Origin: Oscillatoriales cyanobacterium
GTDB lineage: Bacteria; Cyanobacteriota; Cyanobacteriia; Cyanobacteriales; Microcoleaceae
Direction: 5' to 3'
Assembly (NCBI GenBank): GCA_004292955.1
Contig: RDXX01000035.1
Location: 1-64,000 of the forward strand
DNA length: 64,000 nucleotides
Both the position numbers and the translations under genes were made by a program. Numbering within the stretch: position 1 is the first letter of the stretch; each line of letters begins with the position of its first letter. The notes below the pieces were generated by a model, which saw only the letters and a program-made list of their open reading frames with translations, was not told the origin of the DNA and ran no database searches. Below, one piece after another: positions 46,765-56,501 of the stretch.

Positions 46765-47949
46765 ATGGCAACAGCTATTCTCGACCTGGAAATCTCCCAA
46801 CTACCGCCAGAAATAGCGGTTGAGGAGCGTTACAGCAAAGCCTTGGTTTTAATTAGACTGCACGGAAAACCGATCGGTCAAGCGACTTTACCCGCAGTCG
46901 GAGGTCGCATAGACGGCTCCCAATTGCGGGAAACACTGATGAATGCTGTGGGCGATAACCTGTGGAAAAATTGGCTCTACGAGACCCTGGAATGGGACGA
47001 ACGCGGGCCAGTACAGGCAATGCCCACAGCCACTGTAGCGGTTTGCACGCGCGATCGCCCGGAAGATTTGCAGCGCTGTCTCGACGCGTTGATGCGGCTG
47101 CCCGACGACGGTCAGGAATACTTAGTAATTGACAATTGTCCCGCCACGGAGGCTACGAGGGAACTGGTCGAAAATTACCCAAAAGTCCGCTACGTGCGGG
47201 AAGACGTGGCGGGGTCTAGCACTGCCCGCAACCGCGCTGTGCTGGAAGCTAAGGGGGAAGTTATCGCTCTGACAGATGACGATGCAGTACCAGATCCGAA
47301 CTGGTTGCGATCGCTCTTGCACAATTTCGGCGATCCGCGAGTTATGTGTGTCACCGGGTTGGTAATGCCTTTGGAACTCGAAACTGAAGCTCAAGAATGG
47401 TTCGAGCGTTACAGCCCCCACGGACGTGGATTTCAGCGAGTCATCTTCGACGGGGCGTACTGCAACCCGCTGATTGTAGCTCCTATAGGCGTTTCGGCGA
47501 GTATGGCTTTGCGGAAGAGCGCGATCGACTGCGTAGGTCTATTTGACGAAGCTTTGGGTGTGGGGACGCCTGCAAAATGCGGGGAAGATCACGAACTTTA
47601 TGTCCGCATCCTGACTGCGGGCTATCGCATTATCTACGAACCGAGGGCTCTAAGCTGGCATCGTCACCGGCGCGATTGGGAAGATTTGCGCAAAACGATG
47701 TACTGCTACGGAATTGGAGTCTACGCTTTCTGGACGCGCACTTTGGTGAAAAATCGGGAGTTTAGCATACCGCTGTTAGCCTGGGGATGGCTGCGCTACA
47801 AACAACTGCCTGAGTTGATTGCTTCTTTGCGAAACAAACCGGACTCTATCCCAAAAGACTTGCTCTTAGCTCAACTTCGCGGCTGCATCGGCGGCCCGAT
47901 GGCTTATTTTGCTTCTCGCAAACGGTTGCAAGAAATTAAAGGGAAGTGA
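46765..47949 (+). CDS. Family 2 glycosyltransferase with N-terminal module (GT A)
   Basis: 394 residues. Residues 89-330 are a GT-A fold enzyme: ATVAVCTRDRPEDLQRCLDA, the DDD of ALTDDDAVPD as the DXD nucleotide-sugar/metal site, and EDHELYVRILTAGYRI with the catalytic ED. Residues about 26-75 (VLIRLHGKPIG...SQLRETLMNAVGDNL) form a small module also found in three other proteins of this cluster. No membrane segment is certain. First gene of a co-directional set leading to an ABC exporter, so it probably adds a sugar to a surface glycan. TCTAAAA heptamers replace a ribosome binding site. Confidence 0.88.
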   Translation: MATAILDLEISQLPPEIAVEERYSKALVLIRLHGKPIGQATLPAVGGRIDGSQLRETLMNAVGDNLWKNWLYETLEWDERGPVQAMPTATVAVCTRDRPEDLQRCLDALMRLPDDGQEYLVIDNCPATEATRELVENYPKVRYVREDVAGSSTARNRAVLEAKGEVIALTDDDAVPDPNWLRSLLHNFGDPRVMCVTGLVMPLELETEAQEWFERYSPHGRGFQRVIFDGAYCNPLIVAPIGVSASMALRKSAIDCVGLFDEALGVGTPAKCGEDHELYVRILTAGYRIIYEPRALSWHRHRRDWEDLRKTMYCYGIGVYAFWTRTLVKNREFSIPLLAWGWLRYKQLPELIASLRNKPDSIPKDLLLAQLRGCIGGPMAYFASRKRLQEIKGK

Positions 47950-48181
47950 GTAGTTAGTAGTTAGTAGTCAGTAGTCATTAGTCATTAGTCATTGGTCATT
48001 AGTCATTAGTCATTAGTCATTAGTCATTAGTCATAGTGCTGTCCCCGCTCGCGAACGTTATTAGCGCGAGCGTCCCCGCTCGCGAACGTTATTAGCTGAG
48101 ATTCTTCCATCTTCCATCTTCCATCTTCCATCTTCCATCTTCCATCTTCCATCTTCCAATTCCTATTACCAATTACCAATT
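47950..48181. repeat. Short tandem repeats between two glycosyltransferase genes
   Basis: In order: TAGTTAG units, about nine copies of TCATTAG (to 48035), two copies of the 24-bp phrase starting GTCCCCGCTCGCGAACG, then seven CTTCCAT heptamers up to 48160. The gene starts 20 bases later. No terminator is evident. Confidence 0.85.
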
Positions 48182-49498
48182 ATGAACAGGGAAAATCTCA
48201 CTGTTAGCGTAATTATTCCCAGTCACAACCGCAGTTATTCGCTGCGACGCGCTCTCGATGCCCTGCACTCGCAGACTTATCCGATCGACCTCATCGAAGT
48301 GACGGTAGTTGCAGATAGCTGCATTGACGATACTTTGGCAATGCTCAAAGACTACCAAGCTCCGTTTAAAATACAGGTTATTGAAGCAAAGTGTCGGGCT
48401 GCTTCGATCGCCCGGAATACCGGAGCAGCCTCCGCTACCGGAAAACTGCTGATATTTATAGACGACGATATCGAACCAACTCCGCCTTTAGTCGAAAGTC
48501 ATGTACGCATTCACCAACAGCGTCCGGGCTGCGCGGTAATCGGCCCTTATCCTCCTAAATTGCAGGGAGGGACTAGATTCTTTGACGTAACAGTGCGGGC
48601 TTGGTGGGAAGAAAAATTTTATGAGATGAGCCAGCCTGCTCACCGTCACACTTATCAAGACTTGCTCACCGGCAACCTTTCTCTGGATGCAGAACTGTTT
48701 GCTAGCACCGGAGGCTTCGATTCAGGCTTCGGCCAAGGCACTGCCCATGAAGATTACGAGTTCGGCTTACGCTTGCTCAAAGCAAATATACCTTTTGCTG
48801 TGGCAGCGGATGCAGTCGGGTATCACTACGAACACGAAACTAACAACCTCGATCGCTCTTTTCGGCGCGCGCGTGCGGAAGGCCGCTCCGATGTCTTGCT
48901 GGGTCAGAGGCACCCAGAACTCAGACCTACTCTGCACGTAGGGGATTACGAAACTCCTTACTCTCTGGTCGATCGGATTTTGGTCGCCCTGGTTTTTTAC
49001 TGGCCGGCCGCGCTAGATTTGCTGGTGTTGGGACTGAGACGATCGCTAGATTTACTAGAAGCTGTCCGGATGCGCGGTACTTGGCGGTGGCTGAACACTA
49101 AATTGCGCGGTTACTGGTACTTCCGTGGTGTGGTAGACGAATTGAAAACTCGATCGGGCATTTCTAGTTTTCTGCAAGAAGGCCCGGCCCGCGCGGATTT
49201 GGCAGAAAACGAAATAGAAATCGATTTGCAGCAAGGTTTGGAAGCAGCAGAACAAAGGATTGATGCCGAAAGACCCGCCGGTATTTACCTTTACTACGGC
49301 CAACTGACAATCGGTCATATCCCTCCCGAAGTTGGCGCCGAACCTTTACGGGGAGTTCACCTGCGAACGATTCTGGCGCTGCACTTAGCCGAACCGCTGG
49401 CGAGAGCGATGGCGGTTAACGGTATGCCACACAGTTCTGAGTCGATCGCAACACAACCTTTACTTGCTTTTGAAGATCGTGTTTTGGCAATTAAATAA
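48182..49498 (+). CDS. Family 2 glycosyltransferase with C-terminal module (GT B)
   Basis: 438 residues. The GT-A domain is at 8-235 (SVIIPSHNRSYSLRRALDAL, FIDDDIEPTPP as DXD, GQGTAHEDYEFGLRLLKANI). A hydrophobic segment at 260-285 (ILVALVFYWPAALDLLVLGL) may anchor it to the membrane. Residues about 366-410 (IYLYYGQLTIG...VHLRTILALHLAEPL) are the module that the other two GTs carry at their N-terminus. It likely acts on the same glycan. Confidence 0.88.
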   Translation: MNRENLTVSVIIPSHNRSYSLRRALDALHSQTYPIDLIEVTVVADSCIDDTLAMLKDYQAPFKIQVIEAKCRAASIARNTGAASATGKLLIFIDDDIEPTPPLVESHVRIHQQRPGCAVIGPYPPKLQGGTRFFDVTVRAWWEEKFYEMSQPAHRHTYQDLLTGNLSLDAELFASTGGFDSGFGQGTAHEDYEFGLRLLKANIPFAVAADAVGYHYEHETNNLDRSFRRARAEGRSDVLLGQRHPELRPTLHVGDYETPYSLVDRILVALVFYWPAALDLLVLGLRRSLDLLEAVRMRGTWRWLNTKLRGYWYFRGVVDELKTRSGISSFLQEGPARADLAENEIEIDLQQGLEAAEQRIDAERPAGIYLYYGQLTIGHIPPEVGAEPLRGVHLRTILALHLAEPLARAMAVNGMPHSSESIATQPLLAFEDRVLAIK

Positions 49499-49735
49499 TT
49501 GCTAATTGGTAAGTTGTAAGGGGTAATAGGTAATGGGAATAGTGAAATTAATAGCTAGTGCTTCATGTTAATGGCTAGTAATTTTCCTAATCGCCAATCA
49601 CAAATACTAAATACCTAATGCTCCATCCGATTTTGGATTGCCGATTTGAGATTACAATTGCCATCAATCTAAAATCTAAAATCTAAAATCTAAAAGTGCC
49701 AGATTCCAAGTCGGATATTTAGTTAGGAGGAAATT

Positions 49736-50980
49736 ATGGCAATAAAAATGCTTGAGATCGAGTTTACTGAACAGATAAATCCGATTAGGGGACTAGAAAA
49801 ATATGAAGGCGTCCGCATCTTGGTTCGCTACCGAGGACGCCCGATCGGCTGGGGCTATGTTAATAACAATCCCTGGGAACAGACAATCTCGGCAGATCGA
49901 GTGCGACAAACAATTGTCGAGCAGATGGGCAAGACGTTGATTCAATTGAGTTTGGCAGAGCAGTTAGCCCCGATCGCAGAGTTCGATCGAGAATTGCCAC
50001 CAATTAGCGTTGTCATCTGTACGCGCGATCGCACTGACTTACTCAAAGGCGCTCTGGAATCGCTGCTGGCCCTCGACTACCCCAATCGCGAAATTATCGT
50101 TGTAGACAACGCTCCCTCCAACAACAGAACTGCCGAATACGTCGCGGGATTACCTGTACGCTACGTCAAAGAGGAACGGCCAGGATTGGACTGGGCACGA
50201 AATCGCGGCATCGCGGAAGCCCGCCACGAAATTATTGCTTTTACCGACGACGACGCGCGACCCGATCGAGGTTGGCTGCGGTCAATTGCTGCTGGCTTTG
50301 CCGATCCCGAAGTCATGGCCGTCAGCGGTTTAGTCTCGGCTGCGGAACTGGAAACCATGCCCCAACAGCAATTTGAGCTGGTTTACGGCGGAATGCTGCA
50401 ATATTTACACAAATTCAAAGTTGAAGGTAACAAACTTTCGGTGAAAGATTTGCTGTGGGCTTGCAATTACGGCGTTGGAGCAAATATGGCTTTCCGCCGC
50501 CAAATTTTTGAGGCTGTGGGCAACTTTGACGTGGCTCTTGATGTGGGGACGGCGACACGCGGCGCTGGCGATGTCGAGATGTTTCACCGGATTTTGGCGA
50601 AGGGATATACGACTTTTTACGATCCGAGCACTTTGGTGTGGCACTTGCACCGGCGCAGCGACAAAGCTTTGAGCCGACAGTTACAGGATAACGGGCGCAG
50701 TTTTGGGGCTTATTTGCTGACTTGCGATCGCAACCGTACCGTAGGGCGCGCCCAACTTGTGCACTTTGTCGTGTTTGAGTGGTTGGGTTGGTGGCTGCTG
50801 CGCCGCTTGCGGAATCCTGGCAAACTTCCCCGCAAATTCGTAGTCAGCGAATTGCTGGGGGCTTTGCAAAGTCCTTTTGCTTACCGAGAAGCTCAGTTGC
50901 AAGCGCGGCAGTTGGTGGCCCTTGCTGAAGAGGAATCGCAGGAAGTTGAACCGCAGGTAATAGCTGGGGGTGTCCAGTGA
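49736..50980 (+). CDS. Family 2 glycosyltransferase with N-terminal module (GT C)
   Basis: 414 residues. A strong ribosome binding site AGGAGG precedes the ATG. The module is at 26-72 (ILVRYRGRPIG...DRVRQTIVEQMGKTL), and the GT-A domain at 89-330 (ISVVICTRDRTDLLKGALES, AFTDDDARPDRGWL, GAGDVEMFHRILAKGYTTF). It is a clear paralogue of GT A in the whole length. Its stop overlaps the permease GTG by 4 bp, so it is in the transporter operon. Confidence 0.9.
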   Translation: MAIKMLEIEFTEQINPIRGLEKYEGVRILVRYRGRPIGWGYVNNNPWEQTISADRVRQTIVEQMGKTLIQLSLAEQLAPIAEFDRELPPISVVICTRDRTDLLKGALESLLALDYPNREIIVVDNAPSNNRTAEYVAGLPVRYVKEERPGLDWARNRGIAEARHEIIAFTDDDARPDRGWLRSIAAGFADPEVMAVSGLVSAAELETMPQQQFELVYGGMLQYLHKFKVEGNKLSVKDLLWACNYGVGANMAFRRQIFEAVGNFDVALDVGTATRGAGDVEMFHRILAKGYTTFYDPSTLVWHLHRRSDKALSRQLQDNGRSFGAYLLTCDRNRTVGRAQLVHFVVFEWLGWWLLRRLRNPGKLPRKFVVSELLGALQSPFAYREAQLQARQLVALAEEESQEVEPQVIAGGVQ

Positions 50981-51768
50981 GAAATGCAGGACAACTGGTT
51001 TACAGGCGCCAAGTCGCTCATTTCTTTGATTTGCTGCGCGAGTTGGTCGATCGCGACATGAAACTACTCTACAAGCGATCGGCCCTGGGGATTGCTTGGA
51101 CTTTGATCAATCCACTGTTGCAGTTGGCGGTTTTTTCTTTTGTGTTTCGATCGGTAATTCCAATCAACATTCCAAAATATTCTTCGTTTGCTTTCAGTGG
51201 TTTATTAATTTGGACTTGGACTCAAAGTGCCTTATTTCAAGCAACAGGACTAATCACCAGCAACCGCGCTTTAATTAGACAGCCAAATTTTCCGATCGCC
51301 ATTTTGCCTGTAGTCACAACAGCAACAGGGCTAATTCACTTTTTACTGGCGCTCCCAGTCTTAATGATATTTCTGATAATTGACGGTTTGCAGCCGAATT
51401 CAGTGCTGTTTTTTTTGCCAGTGCTGCTGGTAATTCAGTTTTTTTTGACAGTCGGTTTGGCTTATCCCCTCGCTGCTTTGAACGTTACTTTCCGGGACAC
51501 TCAGCACACTCTAGGCGTACTGTTGCAGATGCTTTTTTATCTGACTCCAATTTTCTACGACCTCAACAGCGTCCCGAAAGAATATCTGATATTTTATCAG
51601 TTGAATCCGATGGTGCCGTTGATTGAAGCTTACCGAGCTGTACTCCTCAGAGGCACGCAGCCTGATTGGATGGCATTATTAATTGTGAGTGTAGTAGTAG
51701 CTGCTCTTTTGCCGATCGGACTGGGAATTTTTAGACGGCAAAGCGATCGATTTGTGGAGGAATTGTAA
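50977..51768 (+). CDS. ABC-2 type polysaccharide export permease (Wzm-like)
   Basis: 263 residues, GTG start overlapping the previous stop (GTGA). Six hydrophobic segments; the first cytoplasmic part RELVDRDMKLLYKRSALGIA is the family signature, and YLTPIFYDLNSVPKEYLIFY with LNPMVPLIEAYR is the conserved end. Dimers form the channel for undecaprenyl-linked polysaccharide. The ATPase gene follows with no spacer (TAAATG). Confidence 0.93.
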   Translation: MRNAGQLVYRRQVAHFFDLLRELVDRDMKLLYKRSALGIAWTLINPLLQLAVFSFVFRSVIPINIPKYSSFAFSGLLIWTWTQSALFQATGLITSNRALIRQPNFPIAILPVVTTATGLIHFLLALPVLMIFLIIDGLQPNSVLFFLPVLLVIQFFLTVGLAYPLAALNVTFRDTQHTLGVLLQMLFYLTPIFYDLNSVPKEYLIFYQLNPMVPLIEAYRAVLLRGTQPDWMALLIVSVVVAALLPIGLGIFRRQSDRFVEEL

Positions 51769-53841
51769 ATGCGTCAAGCAATTGTGATTAAAGGTTTAGG
51801 CAAGCGTTTCAACAGCTACAGTGCCGATCGACCTTTTACGATTATGGAGGCTGCTTTGTGGGGGTGGTGGCGGATGAAGCCACAAGCACATTTTTGGGCC
51901 TTGCGAGATGTGAGTTTTAGTGTTTCTCCTGGGGAAATGCTGGGAATTCTTGGCAAAAATGGAGCAGGAAAATCGACACTACTGCAACTGATTGGAGGTA
52001 TCGGCCGTGCTGAGGAAGGAAGTATTAAAGTCAATGGCAAAATTGGCGGTTTGTTGGATTTGGGTGCAGGCTTTCACTCGGATTTAACAGGGCGAGAAAA
52101 TGTGTTTGTGGGTGCGGTAGTAGCTGGTTTAACTCACCGGGAAGCGACGCGCCGCTTCTCTGATATTGTTGAATTTGCAGAATTAGAACAGTTTATTGAC
52201 AGCCCCCTACGAACTTACAGTACGGGGATGCAAATGCGGCTGGCTTTTTCGGTAGCGGTACACACCGATCCGGAAGTGCTTTTAATTGATGAACATTTGT
52301 CGGTTGGTGATGTGGCTTTTCAAACTAAATGTTTGAACAAGATAGCCGAGTTTAAAACTAAAGGTTGTGCGATTGTTTTAATTTCTCACAATGCTGGACA
52401 AATTCAGAAATTGTGCGATCGAGCTTTGTGGCTGCGGGATGGTAAAATCCAGGCTTACGGAGAGCCGGAAGTTGTAGCCGGTCAGTATTTATCGGAAATG
52501 CGATCGGAAACAGAAAAGCGCACTCCCATGCGTCCTCCTGAAGTCACAAGTACAGGCTCGGAATTGCGTGTTAATGAAAACCGTTTCGGTTCTTTGGAAG
52601 TAGAAATTACGGATGTCAAAGTGTTGCCGGATGAGGAAATAGACAGCGGCGATACGATTACTATTGAAATTCATTACACGGTTCCCAAATCGATTGATGC
52701 TGCAATTTTTGGGGTGACAATCAGTCGGGAAGACGGTCAAAGTTGTTTTGAGACTAATACTAATCAAATGGGCCGGTTGATACCGCTGGCGAAAGGTAAA
52801 GGCAAAATCCGGCTGCACGTAGACAGGCTGGATTTAGGAAACGGGCAGTATTACGTGAATCCTGGGGTTTACGAGAAGAGTTGGGCCTACGCTTACGATT
52901 ATCACTGGCACGTTTATCCGCTGTACGTGCGATCGACTGTACACCAAAAAACGATCCTTTGTCCGCCCTACCGCTGGGAGTTTGACGGCAAAATGGAGGT
53001 GCTGGATTTGCCAGAAACAACTGACAAAGTTCACGCTTTGAACAAAAATAATCCCAGCTACGCCAAGATTTCCACTCAGTTGAAAAATAAGCAGTCACCT
53101 GACTTTTTAATTCTGGGCGCTCAAAAGTGCAGCACCGAGGCTTTATACGGTTATCTAGAAAATCACTTGCAAAATATCAAAGAAGGTGCTAAGCAAGTAC
53201 ACTTTTTTGAATTGAATTTCGAGCGCGGTGTTGAGTGGTACAGCAAGCAGTTGACGCGGAGTGTTGCGGGTGACAAAGTGCTGCTGTGGGAGATGACTCC
53301 TTACTATATTTACCATCCGTTGGTGGCCGAGCGGGTTTACAAGTGTTTCCCGGATGTTAAGCTGATTGTGATGCTCCGCAACCCGGTACAAAGAGCGTGG
53401 ATGCACTATCATTTAGAAGTGGCGATCGGCTGTGAAAAGCTGGATTTTGAAAAGGCGATCGCATCTGAACCAGACAGACTCAAAGGTGAGATCGAAAAAT
53501 TCAAAGCCGATGAAGGCTATTACAGTTTCAACCACCAGCATTATTCCTACTTGTCGAGAGGAATTTATGTCGAACAAATCAAGAATTGGCTCGATTATTT
53601 TCCCAGGGAACAGTTGCTAATTATCAAAAGCGAAGATTTTCAAAAAAATCCGGGAGATGTGTTTTCAGAGGTGTTAGAATTCTTGGATGTTAAGGCGAGT
53701 GCTGTCAAAGAATATCAGGGTAATAGTGCCGAAGATTACAGTAATATGCCTCCGGAAATAGAACAAGAATTAACCAATTATTTTAAGCCTTACAATCAGG
53801 AGCTTTCTGATTTGTTGAAGGAAGATTTTAGTTGGAGTTAG
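51769..53841 (+). CDS. ABC ATPase (Wzt-like) fused to a sulfotransferase
   Basis: 690 residues. ATPase part 1-245: Walker A LGKNGAGKST (61-70), signature YSTGMQMRLA (150-159), Walker B VLLIDEHLSVGD (170-181). A Wzt-type carbohydrate-binding beta sandwich follows at about 270-415 (SLEVEITDVKVLPDEEIDSG). From 443 on there is a PAPS sulfotransferase domain: FLILGAQKCSTEALY for the 5' phosphosulfate loop and LRNPVQRAWMHYHLE (536-550) for the 3' phosphate site. The GTT normally found in the 5' loop is ST-E here. The link of export motor and sulfation enzyme in one chain implies that the exported glycan is sulfated. No stop or frameshift divides the parts. Confidence 0.88.
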   Translation: MRQAIVIKGLGKRFNSYSADRPFTIMEAALWGWWRMKPQAHFWALRDVSFSVSPGEMLGILGKNGAGKSTLLQLIGGIGRAEEGSIKVNGKIGGLLDLGAGFHSDLTGRENVFVGAVVAGLTHREATRRFSDIVEFAELEQFIDSPLRTYSTGMQMRLAFSVAVHTDPEVLLIDEHLSVGDVAFQTKCLNKIAEFKTKGCAIVLISHNAGQIQKLCDRALWLRDGKIQAYGEPEVVAGQYLSEMRSETEKRTPMRPPEVTSTGSELRVNENRFGSLEVEITDVKVLPDEEIDSGDTITIEIHYTVPKSIDAAIFGVTISREDGQSCFETNTNQMGRLIPLAKGKGKIRLHVDRLDLGNGQYYVNPGVYEKSWAYAYDYHWHVYPLYVRSTVHQKTILCPPYRWEFDGKMEVLDLPETTDKVHALNKNNPSYAKISTQLKNKQSPDFLILGAQKCSTEALYGYLENHLQNIKEGAKQVHFFELNFERGVEWYSKQLTRSVAGDKVLLWEMTPYYIYHPLVAERVYKCFPDVKLIVMLRNPVQRAWMHYHLEVAIGCEKLDFEKAIASEPDRLKGEIEKFKADEGYYSFNHQHYSYLSRGIYVEQIKNWLDYFPREQLLIIKSEDFQKNPGDVFSEVLEFLDVKASAVKEYQGNSAEDYSNMPPEIEQELTNYFKPYNQELSDLLKEDFSWS

Positions 53842-54014
53842 GATGTTTGTGAAACCGCAGATGAACGCGGATTAACGCGGATTAATACGGTAAAACATAA
53901 TTCCTGTAGGGGCGGGTTAACCAACCATATTTAATTTTTACCAACAATCTAGATAAACCCGCCCCCACTCCACGAAAAAAATTAGATCGCCAGTTTATTA
54001 ATATAAAATCAACA

Positions 54015-56501
54015 ATGCAACGAATATTTTTAGTAGGAGCTCCAAGAAGCGGTACTACAATTCTTCAGAGTTTATTAGCGGCTCATCCTGAAGTTATTTC
54101 TTTTCCTGAATCTAAGTTTTTTCACTATTTATTGTACGAGAAGTTTGCGGCAAAGTTGCCAAGCAGGATGGAAGCTTTTTTTAATGATGAGATTAATCGC
54201 CCTGAACTTTTGCAAGGTTTTGATGACAATCAAAGTGTGGAAGCTAAAGTTAGTTGGTTTGTCGGAGTTTTGGATGGTTTGGCTGCGGAACAGAACAAAA
54301 GCATTTGGTTGGAAAAAACGCCGGAACACATATATTTTATTGAGGATATAGACCGCTTTTTGCCAGATGTTAAGTTTATACATATTTTGCGAAATAGTAT
54401 GGATTGCATCGCTTCTATGTATGAAGCCACTCGGGATTTTAACGAATTGTGGGGCGGTGGTTGGGATTTAGATCGCTGTATCGAGGGATGGAAATATGCA
54501 GTATTAACTAGCCATAACTATCTTGATAAATCTAATCATATCTTGGTTAGATATGAAGATCTTGTAGAAAACAAAAAGTTAGTTCTAGAGGATATTTGTA
54601 ATTTTATTGGAATTGAGTATGATGCTGGAATGCTGATTAATTATAAGGAAAAAGCAGCTAAGCTGAGTTTGAATTTACCTTGGCATCAAGGAATTGCCAG
54701 GGATATTCAAAGCACTAAGGTTCACAAATATCATCGAGTTTTTAAAGATAGTGAAATTAAAAATATTCTAACTCATATCGAGTGGGTAAATTCGAGAATT
54801 GCCTACAAGGTTACGGTGGAGGTGAGCGAATTAATTTCGGATATTAAGGTTCCACAAATATTCAATCGCGTTTGCTGTACAATCAAGTTAGCAGGTGTTG
54901 AACTCGAAGTTAGGGATTTGGAGCTTAATACTATACCAATCCTTTGGCTGCTCCTTCGACAATACAATAGCATGGCTGGGCTCTTATTTCTACGCAAGTC
55001 CCTTATTGAATTGCCAGTCTGTGACGGGATTGTGACGGGTACGGTGTTGGCAGATGCGATCGCAGCCCAGTTTGCTTGGCCAATACTTTCACGCTTCTTT
55101 CAAGACAATCCAGAAACTCCCCAACTGGAATGGACGCTATTTTTACAAGAAATCTGGAATCGTCCTAATTGGGTTGAGGCTAATTTTTACAATCCCGAAA
55201 CCGTCGATGAAGCAGTCACAATCACTCTCGATGGAGACTTGATTGCTGTGGAAGTTAGCGAAGAATTGACTAATATAAAAGTTGAGCTTGCTGAAATTGA
55301 CGTGCTGGTGACAGTAGGCGGTGTGGCGATCGCTATTGTAACCGTTACCGTGGAAAATAACTTTGTTTCTGCTCAAAAAGTGCGATCGACAATTACTCGA
55401 AATATCGGTTTTGAGTTGTGCGTCGCCACCGTGCGAGAAGCTTTGTTGGGAAAACCGCTAGATAATAAGCAATCGTTGCGATCGCGCTTAACCTCTACTG
55501 CACAACAAAGGTCGAATCTGCCCGACTGGTTGAATGCAAAGGGTTCTAGGGGCATTTACCCCCAAGATGCGGTGATGTTCGGTAGGCGATGTGGTGCAAC
55601 AGGAACCAGTATCAGCCGCCGCGCCGCACTCCCAGCCCAGGCGCTGCGGGAATTAACGAAATCAGCAGCAATCGCAGGGGAAGTGATAATCCAAATTCCC
55701 AGAGAAAACGAGTTACCAAAGCAAGTATTTTACGCACCAGAAATCATTTGGCAAAAATCGCCTTACCGAGAAGTTTCTCACTCAGTGAAAACTCAAATAT
55801 TTGACAATGATAGCATCACAGAAAAACTCTCGATTCTCGCCTACCGTCGCATTTCTCCCGATGGTTTAAATGCAATTACTCCGCAGGTTTTTGAACAACA
55901 GTTGCAGTATCTGAAAGAAAATGGTTATTACAGTGCAACTTGGGAAGATTGGCAAAATGCAAAACTAACTAAAACTCCTTTACCAGGTAAAGCTGTATTA
56001 ATAACTTTTGACGGTGGCTATCTCGACTTTTTAACCTACGCTTTCCCTTTGCTAAAACGCTTTGACTTTACAGCCACTGTTTTTCTAGTAGCCGAGTCAA
56101 TAGGAAAGACAAATAGTTGGGAAAAAGCCGAATTTGAACAAGTACAGTTAATGGAATGGCCGGAAATTAGACAATTGCGGGATGCAGGGATTGAATTTGG
56201 TTCCATGTCTGCCACCTATCAGCCTCTGACTTCATTGTCCCCCACCGAAATTGTGCGCGAAGCGGCGAAATCCCGCGCAACTTTGGAACGGGGATTAGGG
56301 AAATCTGTGAGAGTTTTTGCCTATCCCTACGGGAATGTCGATGAAATTGTAGCGCATTTAATCGGAGCAAGTGGGTATAGTTTCGGTGTATCATATAGAT
56401 GGAGTACGAGCAATTTTCACGATTCTTTAATGTCGCTACCCCGCCTTCAAGTAACAGCAGAAAATTTCTGGGAATTGGTTCGTAGATGTGTATATTTGTA
56501 G
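54015..56501 (+). CDS. Sulfotransferase-module-pseudodeacetylase fusion protein
   Basis: 828 residues. 1-270 is a PAPS sulfotransferase (FLVGAPRSGTTILQSLLAAH, 5' loop at 8-15; FIHILRNSMDCIASM, 3' site near 121-135). Two copies of the cluster's module follow, at 288-357 (with a 31-residue insertion) and 430-468. 600-828 has the NodB polysaccharide-deacetylase fold (LSILAYRRISPDGLNAITPQ, VLITFDGGYLDF, RVFAYPYGNVDEI), but the metal ligands are gone: TFDDG is TFDGG (662-667) and the H-x3-H pair reads GSMSATYQ (729-736). The deacetylase part is therefore probably a binding domain. It ends the cluster. Confidence 0.85.
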   Translation: MQRIFLVGAPRSGTTILQSLLAAHPEVISFPESKFFHYLLYEKFAAKLPSRMEAFFNDEINRPELLQGFDDNQSVEAKVSWFVGVLDGLAAEQNKSIWLEKTPEHIYFIEDIDRFLPDVKFIHILRNSMDCIASMYEATRDFNELWGGGWDLDRCIEGWKYAVLTSHNYLDKSNHILVRYEDLVENKKLVLEDICNFIGIEYDAGMLINYKEKAAKLSLNLPWHQGIARDIQSTKVHKYHRVFKDSEIKNILTHIEWVNSRIAYKVTVEVSELISDIKVPQIFNRVCCTIKLAGVELEVRDLELNTIPILWLLLRQYNSMAGLLFLRKSLIELPVCDGIVTGTVLADAIAAQFAWPILSRFFQDNPETPQLEWTLFLQEIWNRPNWVEANFYNPETVDEAVTITLDGDLIAVEVSEELTNIKVELAEIDVLVTVGGVAIAIVTVTVENNFVSAQKVRSTITRNIGFELCVATVREALLGKPLDNKQSLRSRLTSTAQQRSNLPDWLNAKGSRGIYPQDAVMFGRRCGATGTSISRRAALPAQALRELTKSAAIAGEVIIQIPRENELPKQVFYAPEIIWQKSPYREVSHSVKTQIFDNDSITEKLSILAYRRISPDGLNAITPQVFEQQLQYLKENGYYSATWEDWQNAKLTKTPLPGKAVLITFDGGYLDFLTYAFPLLKRFDFTATVFLVAESIGKTNSWEKAEFEQVQLMEWPEIRQLRDAGIEFGSMSATYQPLTSLSPTEIVREAAKSRATLERGLGKSVRVFAYPYGNVDEIVAHLIGASGYSFGVSYRWSTSNFHDSLMSLPRLQVTAENFWELVRRCVYL

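Follow-up and report, generated by a model that had tools for sequence, protein, structure and literature searches.

A probable unnamed domain family of about 75 residues shared by glycosyltransferases and a sulfotransferase-NodB protein of a cyanobacterial polysaccharide cluster

We focused on a small module that recurs in the enzymes of a polysaccharide gene cluster within a 64,000-nucleotide window (the whole stretch of DNA analyzed, positions 1 to 64,000 of contig RDXX01000035.1, assembly GCA_004292955.1, from an Oscillatoriales cyanobacterium). The initial annotation of this window, made from its sequence alone, had pointed out five motif-bearing segments in three glycosyltransferases (referred to as GTA, GTB and GTC here) and an 828-residue protein, and had taken them for one recurring, unrecognized module. 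Alignments of orthologues show that the five segments are parts of one domain of ∼75 residues, consisting of a strand, a hairpin and a long helix, and the profile comparisons described below indicate that this domain is very probably a single, real and as yet unnamed family. As originally placed, the copies are N terminal in GTA and GTC (modules A and C), C terminal in GTB (module B) and arranged as a tandem pair inside the 828-residue protein (modules S1 and S2).

All ten motif segments quoted at the time lie at exactly the residues given for them, and the gap of 13 to 15 residues between the motif blocks in four of the five copies was reproduced (13 in A, B and S2 and 15 in C), the gap in S1 being 44 residues with its insertion included. 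The true repeat unit exceeds the segment drawn earlier, starting ∼20 residues upstream with a strand of the form x-L-[DE]-[IVL]-[ED]-[LIV]. The complete layout is a strand (h-x-[DE]-h-[ED]-h), a loop, the hairpin (h-h-h-R-x-x-x-x-P-[IL]-G-x-h-x-h-P), another loop and the helix.

Comparison of orthologue profiles by hhalign (E values per single comparison) linked A with C at an E value of 2e-13, A with S1 at 4e-7, C with S2 at 7e-7, A with S2 at 4e-5, C with S1 at 5e-5 and S1 with S2 at 1e-4, while module B matched the other groups weakly (E values of 0.0045 to 0.54). We also cross-detected the copies with hidden Markov models (HMMs) built from 25 training sets of four, three or two module groups, from which the window's own rows had been removed, against 779 target sequences including 600 shuffles, so that each module was subjected to 11 tests by HMMs trained on other groups. 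Module A was detected at E values of 6e-10 to 0.06 (1e-3 or better in 9 of 11 tests), module C at 1e-3 or better in 7 of 11 (0.016 to 0.11 in three and missed once, after training on B plus S1), and module S2 at this level in 8 of 11 (0.07 once, decoy level once with A plus B, and missed once with B plus S1). The expectation that an HMM of some copies would find the others above chance thus held for these three and failed for the window's own S1 and B, neither of which reached 1e-3 in any of its 11 tests; the best E value for S1 was 0.2, at most slightly above the decoys, and B never rose above them. These two are established only via their relatives, S1 by the hhalign comparisons given above. 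For B, a profile of 94 non-B sequences aligned with a profile of 29 B sequences over 70 columns (probability 94.9, E value 4e-8) with a score of 40.4, the best of 100 control windows drawn from the same proteins reaching 14.3, and an HMM trained without B matched the C terminus of the Gloeothece GTB (E value 5e-4). On these sequence comparisons, we regard it as certain that A, C and S2 belong to one domain family, and the membership of S1, through its intact relatives, as secure. The brevity of the motif, the weak pairwise comparisons of B and the standing of the window's own B and S1 against the decoys are what a chance or convergent likeness of hairpin plus helix, with no common domain, would predict. 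However, the B profile score relative to its control, the hhalign results and the HMM cross-detection contradict such a likeness, as does the common order of elements in two separate structure predictions (see below), and we consider it highly improbable.

AlphaFold2 predicted module A (52 sequences) with a mean predicted local distance difference test score (pLDDT) of 76 and block means of 81 to 88 over residues 1 to 60, placing strands at 2 to 9, 23 to 32 and 35 to 43 and a helix at 51 to 79. For module B (26 sequences) the mean pLDDT was 85, with 88 to 94 over model residues 11 to 80, and the model comprises a strand (9 to 13), a helix (18 to 28), two strands (32 to 37 and 40 to 45) and two helices (56 to 66 and 68 to 78). 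In terms of the order of elements, the two models share strand, hairpin and helix, except that a loop of A corresponds to an additional helix in B. The module is probably a beta-beta-beta-alpha accessory domain. Foldseek returned no clear PDB match for either model. In agreement with the module having been called unrecognized, no model of Pfam, NCBIfam or PHROG convincingly recognizes it, the scattered matches involving one or two members at E values of 0.008 or worse. With Pfam at E values up to 1, nothing was reported in residues 1 to 87 of GTA, past residue 231 of GTB or in residues 211 to 654 of the 828-residue protein, and residues 1 to 87 of GTC gave a subthreshold PUA match alone (E value 0.022). 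A literature search, whose coverage omits most subscription journals, found no description of the domain.

Table 1. Coordinates of the module copies and of the genes and domains around them in the window.
Feature	Positions	Strand	Description	Support
GTA	46765-47949	+	394 aa
Module A	46765..46998	+	GTA residues 1-78, immediately N terminal to GT2	Motif, hhalign, HMM tests, AlphaFold2
GTB	48182-49498	+	438 aa
Module B	49208..49441	+	GTB residues ~343-420, C terminal	Profile comparison, AlphaFold2; undetected from window sequence alone
GTC	49736-50980	+	414 aa
Module C	49736..49969	+	GTC residues 1-78, immediately N terminal to GT2	Motif, hhalign, HMM tests
Wzm-type ABC permease	50977..51768	+		Pfam ABC2_membrane
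Wzt-type ATPase	51769..53841	+	With Wzt_C and a C-terminal fused sulfotransferase	Pfam
828-aa protein	54015-56501	+
Sulfotransferase domain, 828-aa protein	54015..54689	+	Residues ~1-225, P-loop APRSGTT	Pfam PF13469, E 3e-31 (match 4-203)
Module S1	54804..55109	+	828-aa protein residues ~264-365, hairpin split by in-frame insertion	hhalign; weak from window sequence alone
~97-bp dispersed repeat	54910..55006	+	In frame inside the S1 hairpin	Two other genomic copies, 92% identity
Module S2	55227..55454	+	828-aa protein residues ~405-480	hhalign, HMM tests
NodB-type deacetylase domain	55977..56381	+	Residues 655-789, degenerate metal site (TFDG, GSMSATY)	Pfam PF01522, E 3e-22

The distribution of the module was assessed by phylum searches that scored only the best 14 to 19 candidates per genome, so that the genome counts are lower bounds. 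In Cyanobacteria it was found in at least 17 of 292 genomes at an E value of 0.01 with a first alignment and, with a broader alignment, in at least 21 of 386 at 0.001 (both counts include the window's genome), in Chloroflexota in at least 24 of 301 genomes, seeds included, and in Pseudomonadota in at least 3 of 398, one of them judged spurious by eye. Plasmid records with the module came from Deinococcus, Rhizobium, Sinorhizobium, Shinella, Ensifer and Dietzia, together with a weaker match in Kitasatospora (E values of 6e-4 to 0.01). By these matches, the module is the usual N-terminal domain of a clade of GT2 glycosyltransferases in at least five phyla, with carriers in Cyanobacteria, Chloroflexota, Deinococcus, Rhizobiaceae and Actinomycetota. 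It is present on 109 of the 117 GT2 matches over 140 bits in the selected loci, which is not an unbiased rate, since loci were picked by module or GTA similarity and duplicates are included (loci L028 and L079 are from the same genome); in most of the other eight, module-like letters are visible by eye. A less selected sample is given by plasmid BLAST matches that aligned only from residue 78 to 90 on (H15 to H18, taken from the best 25 of 244 matched plasmid records), three of which carry the module (E values of 1e-7 to 6e-10) while the fourth shows a trace by eye only. The spacing between module and GT2 domain has a median of 11 residues (range, 0 to 90; 122 cases).

The loci examined gave 202 module matches on 168 open reading frames (ORFs; not de-duplicated). 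At least one domain of the GT2, sulfotransferase, methyltransferase or NodB type accompanies the module in 167 of these ORFs; the exception is a piece of 257 aa that matches GT2 weakly. With m standing for the module, SULF for sulfotransferase and MT for methyltransferase, the architectures are m-GT2 (99 ORFs, plus 2 m-GT2-GT2), GTB-mB (26, plus 2 GTB-m and 1 GTB-GTB-mB, most of the matched GTB copies having also been in the B-model training set), SULF-m-m-NodB (15, plus 3 scored as m-m-m owing to the S1-splitting insertion), m-GT2-m-GT2 (8), GT-m-m-MT-NodB (3), GT2-m-GT2 (3) and single cases (6 ORFs, including NodB-m-GT2 and GTB-m-m-GTC). The last of these, from Chloroflexota (L128:1-2682), is a natural GTB-GTC fusion in an 894-aa ORF in which the two modules directly follow one another; its second GT2 part shares 56% identity with GTC and 39% with GTA.

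Module copies tend to cluster. Among the 72 loci, window included, 49 have two or more module matches and 23 have one, and 12 of these 23 are flanked by at least 5 kb of sequence on both sides. In Cyanobacteria, 19 of the 21 matching genomes have two or more copies inside a single stretch that does not exceed ∼15 kb; genome G129 contains two stretches of this kind, and in G062, G172 and G1063 both copies are in one ORF. The module had been described as a feature of one glycan cluster, which is correct for A-type copies in the window's genome but not beyond it, as the module is widespread in the GT2 clade. When all 34 candidates of that genome were scored in a search blind to B-type copies, GTB's own included, four matches had E values of 1e-3 or better, all in this cluster, and three more at 0.45 to 0.61 look like chance.

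The 828-residue protein illustrates how the module pair persists while its neighbors change. Relatives from Scytolyngbya (L028/L079) and Chloroflexota (L129) have the order GT2-m-m-NodS-like methyltransferase-NodB, and in the window's lineage a sulfotransferase replaces the GT and methyltransferase positions, with m-m-NodB kept. Active NodB (CE4) domains carry the metal site motifs TFDD and H-[ST]-x-x-H, where the window's protein has TFDG and M-S-A-T-Y instead. All 18 sulfotransferase-fused sequences covering this site (17 aligned ones including the window's, plus L069) have TFDG and have lost the first metal histidine. The proteins of L028, L129 and rhizobial L085 have an intact site (SFDD in the latter two) and keep the methyltransferase, and the GT-m-m-NodB protein of L079, without methyltransferase, has kept TFDD and lost the first histidine; an intact NodB would thus appear to be tied to the presence of the methyltransferase, in a small number of independent cases. 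Both modules and NodB persist despite the loss of the metal ligands and are therefore kept for something besides deacetylation. They look as if retained for binding or assembly, and the module pair with its degenerate NodB looks like a retained noncatalytic platform. The S1 insertion amounts to 31 extra residues in the window, L005 and L006, while 16 of 18 aligned relatives lack it and have an uninterrupted hairpin. The repeat that it contains recurs in the same genome at C24:34853-34949 and C131:5895-5990, apparently outside genes, a 52-aa reverse-strand ORF alone covering one of these copies.

Conservation was assessed in 94 sequences (effective number, 70). Conserved positions are mostly those of the hydrophobic core, the P-[LI]-G turn and one acidic residue in strand 1, which is present in 93 of 94 sequences and, by strand alternation, probably faces away from the core; 24 of 26 B copies have D at the matching position. 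The turn has P in 66 and G in 84 sequences, strand 2 has R in 52, and Y occurs in 56. Across the family, no conserved aromatic patch was seen; in the best aromatic column, 64 of 94 sequences have Y or F. The B copies have invariant G17, D26, P30, G43, E52, H58 and L59, with R or K at position 29 in 26 of 26 and R60 in 25 of 26.

We tentatively favor the notion that the module may be a homotypic assembly (oligomerization or docking) domain. It would have originated as, or early become, the N-terminal domain of the GT2 clade, and copies would later have been added to other enzymes of the same intracellular glycan, namely, at the C terminus of GTB and as the tandem pair in the sulfotransferase/NodB protein. 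Copies would then pair with each other, as homodimers in single-copy clusters, between enzymes in multicopy clusters and within the chain when in tandem, thereby holding the enzymes of elongation and modification together at the growing chain until it is exported. This is supported by the occurrence of the module in several catalytic settings that are always glycan enzymes, by the clustering of copies in genomes, by their fusion in pairs (SULF-m-m-NodB, GT-m-m-MT-NodB, m-GT2-m-GT2 and GTB-m-m-GTC), by conservation of core, turn and acidic residue without an aromatic patch, and by the persistence of module pair and NodB after loss of the metal site. The neighboring exporters vary, and docking on Wzm/Wzt specifically is therefore unlikely.

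Glycan binding is a close rival that explains nearly as much. Here the module would bind the growing chain or a lipid-linked acceptor for its enzyme, like a small intracellular carbohydrate-binding module, which we regard as possible, if doubtful. Every host acts on glycans, presumably the same chain; the strand-1 acidic residue is kept in all module types, as are D26, R29, E52, H58 and R60 in B; the module pair adjoins a metal-less NodB that might still bind sugar; and single-copy clusters, which favor glycan binding or a homodimer, pose no problem. On the other hand, a family-wide aromatic patch is missing, the fold lists show no carbohydrate-binding module (which excludes nothing), and the paired and tandem copies would be unnecessary.

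The close association with GT2 domains raises the alternative of a structural or regulatory cap acting in cis, with the GTB and 828-residue protein copies as domesticated remnants of lost GT2 units. The frequency and spacing given above agree with a cap, as do the presence of the module in single-copy clusters and the ∼110 N-terminal residues, not matching the module, of one MftF from a related GT2 group. However, the copies without that GT2 (GTB, S1 and S2) are conserved from Cyanobacteria to Chloroflexota, unlike remnants, so that a purely structural cap accounts for the copies of GTA and GTC and leaves these three unexplained; we consider the cap rather unlikely.

Several observations also weigh against assembly. 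The 12 well-flanked single-module loci demand either homodimers or copies below detection, and hetero-docking among several enzymes therefore cannot be the sole role. GTA and GTC are paralogues, and their common module may be a result of gene duplication instead of docking. Of the 19 window-type clusters with GTB and Wzm (L004 to L007, L009 to L017, L019 to L023 and L026), four (L016, L020, L021 and L022) showed no GTC and L026 has a truncated one, and all five keep GTA, GTB with its module and Wzm, indicating that a B-C pair is not obligatory. Finally, the conserved B residues are equally compatible with ligand binding. Extending assembly to a homotypic docking code, in which one domain family, common to glycosyltransferases, sulfotransferases and N-methyltransferase/deacetylase fusions, would assemble cytosolic glycan lines in several phyla independently of the exporter, with dead NodB and tandem modules as the platform that holds the chain for the enzyme modifying a sulfated polymer, appears unlikely at present. 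A module overlooked by Pfam, NCBIfam and PHROG in this GT2 clade offers a way of recognizing one class of glycan clusters, and a 75-residue piece makes the assembly of ABC-dependent pathways testable. The constant module pair, next to a deacetylase that is dead and to enzymes that can be exchanged (GT plus methyltransferase, or sulfotransferase), would represent parts kept beyond catalysis.

In the window, the genes follow each other on the plus strand in the order GTA, GTB, GTC, Wzm, Wzt and 828-residue protein, with GT2 domains at residues 90 to 257 of GTA and 91 to 261 of GTC. The closest GTA orthologues are from Microcoleus, Tychonema and other Oscillatoriales records and from a metagenome-assembled genome labeled Richelia. 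The module was not found in the window's Wzt-type ATPase, whose C terminus has a second sulfotransferase (53095-53841) after Wzt_C; the Wzt proteins of L025, L027, L028, L029 and L032 have 417 to 453 aa, a size that leaves no room for it. A RuBisCO large-subunit-like ORF was also noted by eye.

Among known systems, the Foldseek list for B contains numerous CBS proteins with a similar beta-alpha-beta-beta-alpha order (best probability, 0.51; none significant), but the Pfam CBS profile, searched at E values up to 10 with HMMER filters on, matched neither the 26 B copies nor 22 others. The top curated NCBIfam model for GTA (133.8 bits) and GTC (129.1 bits) is TIGR03965, the mycofactocin biosynthesis glycosyltransferase MftF, although both scores are below its cutoff of 280 bits and the match begins at residue 81 of GTA and 63 of GTC, past most or all of the module. 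The Thermomicrobium MftF likewise has its ∼110 residues ahead of the GT2 domain, but the N terminus of the one MftF compared shows no module match. The MftF N terminus presumably resembles PqqD; Pfam reported nothing in that of Thermomicrobium.

A trifunctional glycosyltransferase/methyltransferase/polysaccharide deacetylase from a Rhizobium plasmid combines GT2, a NodS-like methyltransferase and NodB on one chain and adjoins a GT2 with a module-like N terminus (by eye). It differs from the L028/L079 and L129 proteins, which have tandem modules between GT and methyltransferase, in that the rhizobial stretch is not significantly similar to these. The heterocyst envelope polysaccharide (HEP) island of Anabaena has the order GT, ABC exporter, GT, GT in alr2834 to alr2837 (PMC4390870). 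In order alone, this resembles L073, L075 and L078, whose two postexporter GTs bear the module; no such module-bearing pair was found in Nostoc sp. T09. Module-bearing GT2 genes, mostly paired, adjoin a HepA/MsbA-type ABC exporter in L070, L073 to L078, L082 and L175, and in Rhizobium sp. CB3171 one module GT2 lies beside such an exporter, the second GT2 lacking the module at threshold.

The window itself resembles Wzm/Wzt ATP-binding cassette (ABC)-dependent polysaccharide clusters in having Wzm and a Wzt with Wzt_C beside the enzymes, both above Pfam gathering scores, which identifies it as a cluster of this kind. An exporter (Wzm, Wzt or MsbA-type) was seen in the examined stretch of 43 of the 72 loci, window included. 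The expected neighborhood of other module proteins with Wzm/Wzt genes was found at some of these loci, whereas module clusters elsewhere have HepA/MsbA-type ABC exporters or, in Deinococcus, a flippase.

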